This document shows positions 3,451-6,642 of a stretch of DNA of 12,842 nt, in pieces. The stretch covers positions 2,492 to 15,333 of the forward strand of contig JAPLPI010000163.1 of the NCBI GenBank assembly GCA_026400305.1. The letters run 5' to 3'. Position 1 is the first letter of the stretch. Each line of letters opens with the position of its first letter. The translations under genes were made by a program, and so were the position numbers. The notes beneath the pieces are model-generated. The model had not been told where the DNA came from, made no database searches, and was given only the letters and a program-made list of their open reading frames with translations. Source of the stretch: Alphaproteobacteria bacterium. GTDB taxonomy: Bacteria; Pseudomonadota; Alphaproteobacteria; Micropepsales; Micropepsaceae.

Positions 3451-3474
3451 CTTTCTTGATTGCGGCAACGGGGA

Positions 3475-3819
3475 TCAGCGAACAGGCTGGGCCGGCCTGG
3501 ACTGGGCCTGGCGATCGGTCCTGTCGAACTTGCCCAGGGTGCAGGTCTGCATGGACTGCAGCACCTGGAAGCTCTGCTCGTTCTCGCAGACCTTGTTGTC
3601 GCCGGTATGCAGCTGCCAGGCGAAGCCGTAGTATTTCAGGTCCGGGCAGTTGCCATGCAGGTGGTTCACCAGGGTGCGGCCGTCCTTCATCTTGAACACC
3701 ATCGTCTTGCCGTCCTTGGACGTGCTGGAGACGATCTCGCGTGTGTCGACGCACATATTCTCGGCGTAAGCGGGCGCGGCCAGGGTGAGCAGCGCCGAAG
3801 CGATCACAAAAAACTTCAT
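3475..3819 (-). CDS. Periplasmic four-cysteine protein (DUF6491-like)
   Basis: A 114-residue exported protein. Residues 1-19 ([19 protein letters not shown]) are a signal peptide with an AYA cleavage site. The mature part has four cysteines, in [28 protein letters not shown] and MQTCTLGKF, which could form two disulfides in the periplasm. The layout (Cys-xxx-Arg-Glu-Ile, a [14 protein letters not shown] strand pair, then Asn-x-Cys-Pro-x-Leu) resembles DUF6491 proteins, whose function is unknown; I make this match from memory of the pattern. The start at 3819 is fixed by a strong GGAGG about 5 nt upstream. The same frame extends far upstream across thrS, but that part is antisense noise. The C-terminal tail after GKFDRTDRQ is Gln/Pro/Arg-rich and probably disordered. 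It is divergent from thrS. Confidence 0.85.
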
Positions 3820-3865
3820 GACTTCCTCCATATGCCCCGCCGGGTGATTGTCTGCCGTCCGCGGC

Positions 3866-3895
3866 GTGACGCAAGCTCTACTATAATTGTAATAT
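3866..3895 (+). promoter_or_regulatory. Candidate thrS promoter
   Basis: GTGACG (3866-3871) and TAATAT (3890-3895) are separated by 18 nt; each matches four of six consensus positions of a housekeeping promoter. They lie in an AT-rich patch that stands out in this GC-rich DNA and would give a leader of roughly 75 nt before thrS. A perfect TATAAT at 3882-3887 is also present but has no -35 at normal spacing. Inference only. Confidence 0.3.
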
Positions 3896-3965
3896 ACGAA
3901 AAGGGTCCATACTTGACGCAAGGCTCGACTGGGGCCAAAGGTCCAAATCCGTTGAATAATCCCAT

Positions 3966-3972
3966 GGAGAAG
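3966..3972 (+). promoter_or_regulatory. Ribosome binding site that sets the thrS start
   Basis: GGAGAAG ends 3 nt before GTG 3976, with the GGAG core 6 nt from it. It overlaps the alternative ATG at 3964, which itself has only an AT-rich, non-Shine-Dalgarno sequence in front. This favours GTG 3976 as the start of thrS. Confidence 0.7.
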
Positions 3973-3975
3973 CCC

Positions 3976-5916
3976 GTGTCCGCAGTGCCTGAACAGGTCA
4001 CCGTAACCTTGCCCGATGGCAAGGCCTTGACCTTTCCCAGGGGCGTAACAGGCGGGGAAATCGCCGCAGCCATCGGACCGGGCCTGGCCAAGGCCGCCCT
4101 GATCATCACCCTGGACGGCAAGGAATGGGACCTGTTCCGGCCCATCGAGCAGGACGCCAAGATCCGGATCATCACCCGCAAGGACCATGAGTCGCTGGAG
4201 CTGATCCGTCACGACATGGCGCATGTGCTGGCCATGGCGGTGCAGGCGCTGTATCCGGGCACCCAGGTGACCATCGGCCCGGCCATCGAGGACGGCTTCT
4301 ATTATGACTTCGCGCGCGCCGAGCCCTTCACGCCCGACGATCTGCCAAAAATCGAAGAGGAGATGCGCAAGATCATCAAGGCGGGCCTGCCCACCCGCCG
4401 CGAGGTGTGGCCGCGCGACAAGGCGATCGCCCATTTCAAGGGCATCGGCGAAAGTTTCAAGGCGGAGCTGATCGCCTCCATCCCCTCGGACGAAGACGTC
4501 TCGATCTACTGGCACGGCACCTGGCACGACCTGTGCCGCGGCCCGCATTTTCGTACGACCGCCGAGATCGGCGATGCCTTCAAGCTGACCAAGATCTCCG
4601 GCGCCTATTGGCGGGGCGATGCCAAGAACGCGCAGCTGCAGCGCATCTACGGCACTGCCTGGCGCGACAAGAAGGAACTGGATGCCTACCTGACGCGAAT
4701 GGAAGAAGCCGAGAAGCGCGACCACCGCAAGATCGGCAAGGAGATGGACCTGTTCCATATCCAGGAAGTCGCCACCGGGCAGATCTTCTGGCACGCCAAC
4801 GGCTATACCCTGTACCGGGCGCTGGAAAACTATATCCGCCGCCAGCTGGTGCGCGCCGATTACATCGAAGTGAAGACGCCGCTCCTGCTGGACCGCAAGC
4901 TGTGGGAAGCCAGCGGCCATTGGGAAAACTACCGCGAGCACATGTTCCTAGCGGAAGTAGAAGACGAGAACCGCACCCTGGTGGTCAAGCCGATGAACTG
5001 CCCGGCGCATGTGCAGATATTCAACGAAGGGCTCAAGTCCTATCGCGAGTTGCCCATCCGCATGGCGGAGTTCGGCTCCTGCCACCGCTATGAACCGTCG
5101 GGTTCGCTGCACGGCATCATGCGGGTGCGCGGCTTCGTGCAGGACGACGCTCACATCTTCTGTACCCATGAGCAGATCACGCCCGAGACCACCTCGTTCT
5201 GCAAGCTGCTGCAGGCCTGTTACAAGGACCTGGGCTTTGAAGAGGTCCGGGTGAAGCTGGCGACCCGCCCTGAGAACCGCATCGGCAGTGATGCGGTGTG
5301 GGACCAGGCGGAGAAGGCGCTAGCCGAAGCCACCACGGCAGCCGGCCTTGAGTATCTCATCAACCCGGGCGAAGGCGCCTTCTACGGTCCCAAGCTTGAA
5401 TTCGTCTTGCGCGACTCCATCGGCCGCGACTGGCAGTGCGGCACGCTGCAGGTGGACTTCAATACCGCCGAGCGCCTTGGTGCTGGCTATATCGCCGCCG
5501 ACGGCGCGCGGCATGCGCCTGTCATGCTTCACCGCGCCATCGTCGGCTCGCTGGAGCGCTTCATCGGCGTGTTGATCGAACACCATGCAGGAAAGTTCCC
5601 GCTGTGGCTGGCGCCGGTGCAGGTAGCCGTCGCCACCGTGGTGGCGGACGCCGACGCCTATGCACAGGAAGTTGTGGCGGCGCTGAAGGCCAACGGCTTG
5701 CGGGTCATACTCGACACCGAAAACCAGACCGTCAACTACAAGGTGCGCCAGCACAGCCTGGCCAAAACCCCCAATCTGATGGTTTTGGGTCGCAGGGAGG
5801 CCGAAAACCGCACCATTACCCTGCGAAAACTGGGGGGTGAGGGGCAGGAAAGCCTTGCGCTGGAGGCGGCGATTTCTATGCTATCTGCCGAAGCCGTGCC
5901 GCCTGACCTTCGTTGA
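3976..5916 (+). CDS. thrS: Threonine--tRNA ligase
   Basis: Class II aminoacyl-tRNA synthetase that charges tRNA-Thr in the cytoplasm; 646 residues from GTG 3976, normal family length. Domains in order: TGS (about 1-65), the N2 editing domain with HDMAH (H79, H83) and CRGPH (C187, H191), the class II catalytic core, and a C-terminal anticodon-binding domain (from about residue 540). The zinc ligands of the active site are all present: Cys342 in MNCPAH, His393 in QDDAHIF and His519 in MLHRAI. Their spacings of 51 and 126 equal those of the E. coli enzyme (334/385/511). Motif 2 is visible around [13 protein letters not shown]. An upstream in-frame ATG at 3964 would add four residues but lacks a Shine-Dalgarno. 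infC follows 119 nt later on the same strand, the classic thrS-infC order. No defect was seen. Confidence 0.98.
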
Positions 5917-5943
5917 GCGGCCACGAGAGACCCAACCGCGCCA

Positions 5944-6039
5944 ATGATCCGAAAAGTGTTTCGCGAGGCCGGCAAAATCCCTCGCGAAGCCGTCGTTTTT
6001 TGTCGCCGGTCCGGTCGTAACAACAGGAGAGAGTCATAG
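5944..6039 (+). CDS. Possible 31-residue leader peptide before infC
   Basis: An ATG-started frame of 31 codons ends with TAG 6037-6039, overlapping the AUA start of infC (6036-6038) by two bases. The peptide is basic and Arg-rich ([19 protein letters not shown] then [12 protein letters not shown]). Its coding bases include the whole thrS-infC hairpin and the infC Shine-Dalgarno. Only a GAGAG about 14 nt upstream could act as a ribosome site, too far for efficient initiation. The stop/start overlap would suit translational coupling, but a frame this short can arise by chance. Weakly supported. Confidence 0.2.
5960..6001 (+). terminator. Hairpin plus T-run between thrS and infC (terminator or attenuator)
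   Basis: A perfect 9-bp stem (TTCGCGAGG 5960-5968 with CCTCGCGAA 5980-5988) encloses an 11-nt loop; six T follow at 5996-6001, seven bases after the stem. Loop bases CGGC (5970-5973) could also pair with GCCG (5989-5992). Alternatively GGCCGGC (5967-5973) could pair with the GCCGGTC around 6005-6011, giving a competing fold. It may end most thrS transcripts, or modulate read-through into infC. Confidence 0.45.
6025..6029 (+). promoter_or_regulatory. Shine-Dalgarno that sets the AUA start of infC
   Basis: AGGAG ends 6 nt before ATA 6036, ideal spacing. It lies just after an in-frame TAA at 6018-6020, so it cannot serve a start further upstream in the infC frame. Confidence 0.85.
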
Positions 6040-6581
6040 TTCCCAGACGTTTTCAGGGTAATGCCCCGCCGCCAGCCAAGGATGGACCGCGCATCAACGA
6101 TGAAATCACCGCCAAGACAATTTTCCTGATCGGCGACGACAGCCACAAGTATGGCGAGATCGGTCTGGATGAGGCGTTGGCGCTGGGCGAGGAAAAAGGC
6201 TTCGACGTTGTGGAGGTCTCTCCGGACAACAAGCCGCCCGTCTGCAAGCTGATGGACTATGGCAAGTTCAAGTACGAACAGCAGAAGAAGGCTAACGAGG
6301 CCCGCAAGAAGCAGAAGGTCATCGAGATCAAGGAGATCAAGATGCGCCCCACCATCGACGATCACGATTACGACGTGAAGATGCGCGCGATGAAGCGCTT
6401 CTTCGACGAAGGCGACAAGGTCAAAGTCACCTTGCGCTTCCGCGGCCGCGAAATGGCCCACCAGCATCTGGGCATGGAGCTTCTGACCCGCGTGCAGAAG
6501 GACACCGAAGTCTTCGCGAAGCTGGAGCAGTATCCAAAGATGGAAGGTCGCCAAATGATGATGGTCCTCGCGCCGCGCTGA
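6036..6581 (+). CDS. infC: Translation initiation factor IF-3, with AUA start codon
   Basis: IF3 binds the 30S subunit, blocks premature 50S joining and proofreads the start codon and initiator tRNA. From ATA 6036 the product is 181 residues, a normal IF3 length. The N-domain contains [14 protein letters not shown] and [23 protein letters not shown] charged helix ([20 protein letters not shown]) links to the C-domain with [33 protein letters not shown] and [11 protein letters not shown]. The start is forced: TAA 6018-6020 closes the frame upstream, and no ATG or GTG occurs before the conserved N-domain. The first TTG (6177) would delete about 47 residues. The AUA has an ideally spaced AGGAG. 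Non-AUG starts are known for infC (AUU in E. coli), where they allow IF3 to repress its own synthesis; the same is inferred here. A strong terminator follows, and rpmI-rplT are not next. Confidence 0.95.
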
Positions 6582-6611: not shown

Positions 6612-6642
6612 AAAAAGCGCCCTTACGGGCGCTTTTTGTTTT
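6612..6642. terminator. Intrinsic terminator after infC, probably bidirectional
   Basis: An 11-bp AAAAAGCGCCC/GGGCGCTTTTT stem (6612-6622 with 6627-6637) has a TTAC loop, then GTTTT. It lies 30 nt after the infC stop. The A-tract makes a T-run on the minus strand, so it could also end transcripts of the minus-strand cluster that stops at 6767. Between 6643 and 6766 I see no gene. Confidence 0.92.

Follow-up and report, generated by a model that had tools for sequence, protein, structure and literature searches.

An AUA start codon for infC is conserved in a genus of Micropepsaceae and is common across Alphaproteobacteria, consistent with IF3 self-repression

Butler et al. are said to have shown in 1987 that changing the start codon of Escherichia coli infC from AUU to AUG abolishes autocontrol, and the 1997 paper by Babic et al. 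on Rhodobacter sphaeroides pifC reportedly discusses an unusual start codon. Initiation factor 3 (IF3) is described as autoregulating infC through a non-canonical start (PMC5472188), and the gene is reported to start at AUU in both E. coli and Bacillus subtilis (PMC1805508). An ATT start is also given for infC of Listeria (PMC13068326) and, from peptides, for that of Xanthomonas (PMC5559785). In Streptomyces, infC starts at ATC, and infC starts are reported to be misannotated in most Streptomyces (PMC5472188). For Staphylococcus aureus, an AUA start was mapped by Ribo-Ret ribosome profiling, and the authors proposed autoregulation (PMC13009471). The IF3 gene pifC of R. sphaeroides (Babic et al. 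1997) is cited as having been reported to act like IF3 (PMC6199135).

We analyzed a 12,842-nucleotide stretch of DNA from a bacterium of the alphaproteobacterial family Micropepsaceae (the window), located on contig 353 of a 2.28-Mb assembly (438 contigs, 89% complete). Here, infC follows thrS, the frame of which ends at 5916, after an interval of 119 nt (Table 1). The true thrS start probably lies inside the listed frame. Downstream of infC, the hairpin at 6612 to 6637 is followed by a T run, and a consensus scan did not report this hairpin.

Table 1. Features of the thrS-infC region, in positions of the window
Feature	Coordinates	Strand	Evidence or remark
thrS frame as listed (threonyl-tRNA synthetase)	3460..5916	+	TIGR00418, 671 bits, residues 250-811 of the listed frame
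Leader hairpin in the thrS-infC interval	5958..5990	+	Covariation; model matches in most genus members
TAA in the infC frame, bars upstream starts	6018..6020	+	Five codons 5' of ATA
Shine-Dalgarno sequence AGGAG	6025..6029	+	6 nt 5' of ATA
infC, 181-residue IF3 from ATA, stop codon included	6036..6581	+	TIGR00168, IF3_N, IF3_C
Start codon ATA	6036..6038	+	ATA at the aligned place in 30/30 genus loci; bases on either side (C, G) invariant
TTG, first canonical codon in the infC frame; rejected start	6177..6179	+	Inside the IF3 N-domain
Hairpin plus T run 3' of infC, probable terminator	6612..6637	+	Fold z-score -5.0

The original prediction was that infC starts at an ATA six nucleotides behind AGGAG, with an in-frame TAA upstream and a 181-residue IF3 as the product, and each of these elements was located exactly as claimed. 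When read from this ATA, the protein scores 241 bits against the TIGR00168 infC equivalog model (cut-off, 60) and contains a complete IF3_N domain (1-70/70) and an IF3_C domain covering positions 1-85/86. It had further been claimed that neither ATG nor GTG occurs ahead of the conserved N-domain; indeed, no canonical start (ATG, GTG, or TTG) is present in the infC frame between TAA 6018 and TTG 6177. A gene caller restricted to these three codons would pick TTG 6177, and IF3 might accordingly begin at this or a later canonical codon, with the upstream part untranslated. However, a start at TTG 6177 would cost 47 residues and leave only IF3_N positions 31-70, with 30 of the 70 positions lost, and the counterpart of this codon, present in one relative (L003), is absent at that place in two others (L004 and L005). 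We rejected the TTG start because it truncates IF3_N and is not shared by all relatives, and a downstream canonical start in general is highly improbable. The fold of positions 5940 to 6080, which served as a test for structure hiding the AUA, was no better than that of shuffled sequences (z, -0.42).

To place this codon in its phylogenetic context, we compared it with infC from the same genus. Of 37 genomes searched, 34 contained an infC match, and 30 loci were saved for analysis. Comparison of infC 5' ends, which the original prediction had proposed as its check, found ATA conserved at this point behind a Shine-Dalgarno (SD) sequence in all 30 loci. The SD match comprised four to six bases at an aligned spacing of 6 to 8 nt before ATA (AGGAG in 17 loci, AAGGAG in 8, AAGG in 4, and GGAG in 1), and the string C-ATA-G was invariant. 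The SD sequence and some codons after the ATA were also well conserved in the genus, and positions -30 to -19 were highly variable. Since its neighbors in the initiation region are highly conserved too, the ATA belongs to a conserved site and is not a lone conserved triplet. Inside the same infC genes, from residue 20 onward, ATA encodes only 2 of 289 isoleucines; elsewhere in the window, the corresponding fractions are 4 of 45 for the thrS frame and 5 of 101 over seven further frames. An in-frame stop lies within 10 codons upstream of the ATA in 17 of the 30 loci, and in 16 the stretch between the in-frame stop and approximately residue 31 lacks any canonical start. Where such codons do occur, in the other 14 loci, they do not fall at one common place. 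Of two more genomes of the genus, one (G061) has ATA, and the other (G311) has an in-frame ATA at a contig end, where it was not callable.

These alignments also bear on two other explanations of the ATA. An assembly or base-calling error is conceivable in a metagenome bin, given that the source assembly is fragmented, but the same ATA recurs in 30 separate genomes of the genus, including one assembled as a single contig, and in the nearest genome (G001), which is 96% identical over this stretch. The relatives thus refute a base error, and we rejected this explanation as having a practically negligible chance of being correct. Initiation could instead occur at GUC 6033, the codon preceding the ATA, as in Streptomyces sigR, for which a GTC start is reported (PMC5472188). 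GTC stands directly 5' of the ATA in 29 of the 30 genus loci. However, GUC 6033 is only 3 nt away from AGGAG, the codon before the ATA is ACC in L017 and L116, and outside the genus the codon before ATA or ATC is a stop in at least five loci (L125, L129, L130, L145, and L146). On the grounds of the short SD distance and of the ACC or stop codons in relatives, we rejected GUC 6033 as a very unlikely start. Comparison with relatives therefore strongly supports translation of infC from AUA 6036.

Next, we surveyed infC start codons across the class, in which IF3 was found in 383 of 387 genomes searched. The family sample took one infC, the first listed, from each of 149 of 159 family codes (10 codes had no representative), with the window representing its own family. 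Starts were called by the best SD match before any of seven allowed codons (ATA, ATC, ATT, ATG, GTG, TTG, or CTG); because the caller requires an SD match, starts without one were left uncalled. The 149 families yielded AUA in 73, AUC in 30, AUU in 18, AUG in 5, UUG in 5, GUG in 3, CUG in 1, and no call in 14, so that AUA, AUC, or AUU (AUN below) was found in 121 of the 135 called families and AUG, GUG, UUG, or CUG in 14. A stricter call, with five matched SD bases and a spacing of 5 to 9, retained 102 families (ATA, 61; ATC, 22; ATT, 10; ATG, 3; TTG, 3; GTG, 2; CTG, 1). In a separate set of 80 named loci, which includes three from the window's genus as judged by sequence (L032 to L034) and 11 that are betaproteobacterial judging by their names, we counted ATA in 35, ATT in 24, ATC in 14, CTG in 1, TTG in 1, and no call in 5. 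Eleven of the 12 loci with Rhodobacteraceae-like names were called ATA, and the remaining one (L084) was called TTG with ATA as the second choice. In this alphaproteobacterial sample, infC thus starts with AUA more often than with any other codon. The original prediction had presented AUA as a different codon for the design known from E. coli; this is correct in relation to the E. coli AUU, yet AUA leads this sample and has already been reported for S. aureus infC (PMC13009471).

As a control for the caller, we used rpsL. A search of 30 genomes recovered this gene from 28, all of which have ATG at its start when inspected by eye. The caller returned ATG for 18 of these, no call for 6, ATC for 2, TTG for 1, and ATA for 1, thus naming a wrong codon in 4. 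Although imperfect, it reported an AUN codon for 3 of 28 rpsL genes versus 121 of 149 infC genes. Individual automatic calls are doubtful in L232, L084, L159/L250, L260, and L261. In L232, ATG was called, but an ATA with GGAG lies five codons upstream; this locus counts as ATG in the family totals and was set by hand to ATA on the tree described below. In L084, TTG was called although an ATA occupies the usual place. AUG starts were called automatically in L238, L247, L251, and L262. At the place homologous to the ATA, a CTG behind AAGGAG is found in L122, from a sister genus in the same family (G375), and CTG is also found there in L035, which comes from a reactor bin and encodes a similar protein.

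Codon turnover was followed on a quickly built IF3 tree with 157 rows; of these, 144 carried a start-codon label, namely the 135 called families plus 9 others. The fewest changes needed among AUA, AUC, and AUU were 41 (129 rows), a raw count without a neutral expectation, whereas the fewest between AUG and AUN were 3 (133 rows, in which the four AUG rows set a maximum of four). Separating AUN from all other codons required at least 12 changes. As the tree is drawn from one short protein, all of these change counts are inflated, and they stand without a shuffled or neutral expectation. Although one transition suffices to turn AUA into AUG, AUG starts hardly occur in the class. At the third position, A, C, and U predominate and G is rare, and a sister genus appears to use CUG, a pattern that we attribute to selection in favor of codons rejected by IF3. 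Selection thus probably keeps an IF3-rejected codon rather than AUA itself, leaving the exact codon free to drift. We consider it likely that AUA and not AUU is the default in Alphaproteobacteria, that AUA, AUC, and AUU (and CUG in the sister genus) have turned over often while AUG was nearly excluded, so that nature's own mutagenesis of the codon would show rejection by IF3 to be what is selected, and that the window's genus has added a covarying hairpin of its own. On the comparative evidence, the non-AUG start of infC is real, old, and retained, as self-repression by IF3 would require.

We assign a probability of roughly 0.87 to the reading that infC starts at AUA 6036 and that IF3 represses its own mRNA through this AUA. 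The best reading of the codon is that it would serve the same self-sensing design as the E. coli AUU. This model adds to the observed codon, SD sequence, and conservation three predicted properties, namely initiation with fMet, sensitivity to IF3, and feedback at the AUA. The good SD sequence would recruit the 30S subunit and maintain basal initiation. fMet-tRNA would pair properly with AUA at the first two positions only and would thus form 30S complexes of the kind that IF3 discards, as IF3 would destabilize the fMet-tRNA:AUA complex. When IF3 is low relative to 30S subunits, initiation at AUA would escape and IF3 would be produced; when IF3 is abundant, it would repress its own mRNA, by analogy with the E. 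coli AUU. The window protein retains the E. coli C-domain positions R99, K110, R129, R131, R133, R147, and R168, which we take to be linked to start-codon discrimination. In the N-domain, all 30 genus proteins carry L or F at the equivalent of E. coli R25, a position at which 126 of 147 proteins from the class have R, and all 30 carry K at the equivalent of Q33. The N-domain contacts of IF3 may therefore differ in the window's family, and because these two residues differ from those of E. coli, the strength of discrimination by the window IF3 is uncertain.

Alternatively, AUA could be the start codon but merely hold IF3 low, without feedback, a role that we regard as unlikely. It would accommodate the fact that feedback at infC AUA in the window's lineage is argued by analogy, and S. 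aureus reporters of other genes show that non-canonical starts give about 10% of the AUG yield, with one reaching up to 30% in rich medium (PMC13009471). However, GUG, UUG, or a weak SD sequence could maintain a weak start equally well, and autocontrol of E. coli infC is reported (PMC5472188). Moreover, 93 of the 121 called AUN families combine an SD match of at least five bases with a spacing of 5 to 9, compared with matches of at least five bases in 4 of the 18 rpsL genes called as ATG, a contrast that is modest, since 9 of the 14 non-AUN infC calls have such an SD sequence too.

The covarying element in the thrS-infC interval is a hairpin 45 nt upstream of the AUA. Its arms, CGUUUCGCGAGG and CCUCGCGAAGCG, form 12 bp in the consensus and 11 bp in the window. 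In 30 leaders (L002 to L031), 93% of cells were paired and five of nine pairs had changed on both sides; none of 500 shuffles matched the values for paired cells or for the score, and 4 of 500 matched that for changed pairs. Slid controls were far lower on paired cells and score, and a slide of +3 tied on pairs changed on both sides. A covariation model was built from 25 rows, five of the 30 (L010, L016, L022, L027, and L028) having been excluded as misfits; 4 of its 12 pairs had changed on both sides, which 33 of 500 shuffles reached, and its score exceeded all 500 shuffles. This model matched 22 of 41 genomes (22 of 25 in the genus and 0 of 16 others), and in 17 of the 22 the match lay at the infC leader, including two genomes outside the model (G004 and G007). 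The other matches lay elsewhere (G005, G017, G018, G019, and G023), those in G019 and G023 with E-values equal to those of some leader matches, and six infC-bearing genomes of the genus (G003, G005, G019, G022, G023, and G024) gave no match at the leader. The association of the hairpin with infC is therefore frequent but not strict. At curated thresholds, Rfam reported just a tRNA in the window and no leader element. A role as an intrinsic terminator is in general unlikely, because only a small number of the 30 rows, the window's among them, show a T run behind the hairpin, and we rejected it.

The hairpin, rather than the start codon, might be the main control of infC in the genus, given that it covaries and that 17 of 25 genomes of the genus have it at the infC leader. 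We consider this unlikely. It was not found in the 16 class genomes outside the genus, whereas the AUN start is class-wide, and 40 infC loci outside the genus contained no convincing match (one weak match, E = 0.24). The misfitting rows and the six genomes lacking a leader match also weigh against it. We favor control through the AUA, beside which the hairpin is, as far as sequence comparison goes, an unexplained extra that most but not all members of the genus retain.

Standard gene callers had been expected to miss the AUA, and we therefore opened five alphaproteobacterial database records. Two RefSeq records, those of Falsirhodobacter algicola and an Azospirillum brasilense plasmid, annotate infC from ATA, and a Sinorhizobium meliloti GenBank record annotates it from ATT. 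In contrast, the RefSeq record of an Azospirillum lipoferum plasmid (L281, NC_016588.1) starts infC at a downstream ATG, with AGGAG and ATA lying upstream, and a Shinella record lists no gene at the place of infC. The expectation thus described the last two records but not the two that annotate ATA. The fault matters for annotation, as restricting infC starts to ATG, GTG, or TTG truncates IF3, just as in the A. lipoferum record. In the A. brasilense plasmid (L144, NZ_CP032349.1 610231-612581), the ATA-started infC adjoins rpsU and a cold-shock gene, and this copy is perhaps a second, conditional IF3. Fifteen Azospirillum plasmid records matched IF3, two of which were opened.

The survey yields a class-wide prediction: with AUA, AUC, AUU, or CUG as the start codon, expression of infC should depend on the dose of IF3, and in the few families with an AUG infC it should not. 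The families represented by L238, L247, L251, and L262 would be natural exceptions, predicted to have lost feedback by IF3. In the open-access literature, we found no survey of alphaproteobacterial infC start codons, although one may still exist in print; it is the predominance of AUA across the class that we did not find in print, and the AUA start itself is a further example of a known trick.

Among the known systems, E. coli infC resembles the window in having thrS upstream, an SD sequence before a non-AUG AUN codon, and the same protein as its product, and in the E. coli record that we opened (L282), the ATT start is both annotated and seen. The two differ in the codon, AUU versus AUA, and in gene order, which in the E. 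coli record is thrS-infC-rpmI-rplT, whereas the window has a probable terminator after infC. S. aureus infC shares the gene, the AUA, and an SD sequence with the window; it belongs to another phylum, and its AUA start was shown by experiment, compared with sequence comparison in the window. Streptomyces infC (ATC) and the IF3-repressed sigR (GTC) provide further non-canonical starts under discrimination by IF3, with other codons and in another phylum, and there IF3 dose and mutants were tested on sigR (PMC5472188). R. sphaeroides pifC is, like infC of the window, an alphaproteobacterial IF3 gene. Since AUU in E. coli, AUC in Streptomyces, and AUA in S. aureus were already known, the AUA start in the window is not new in kind.
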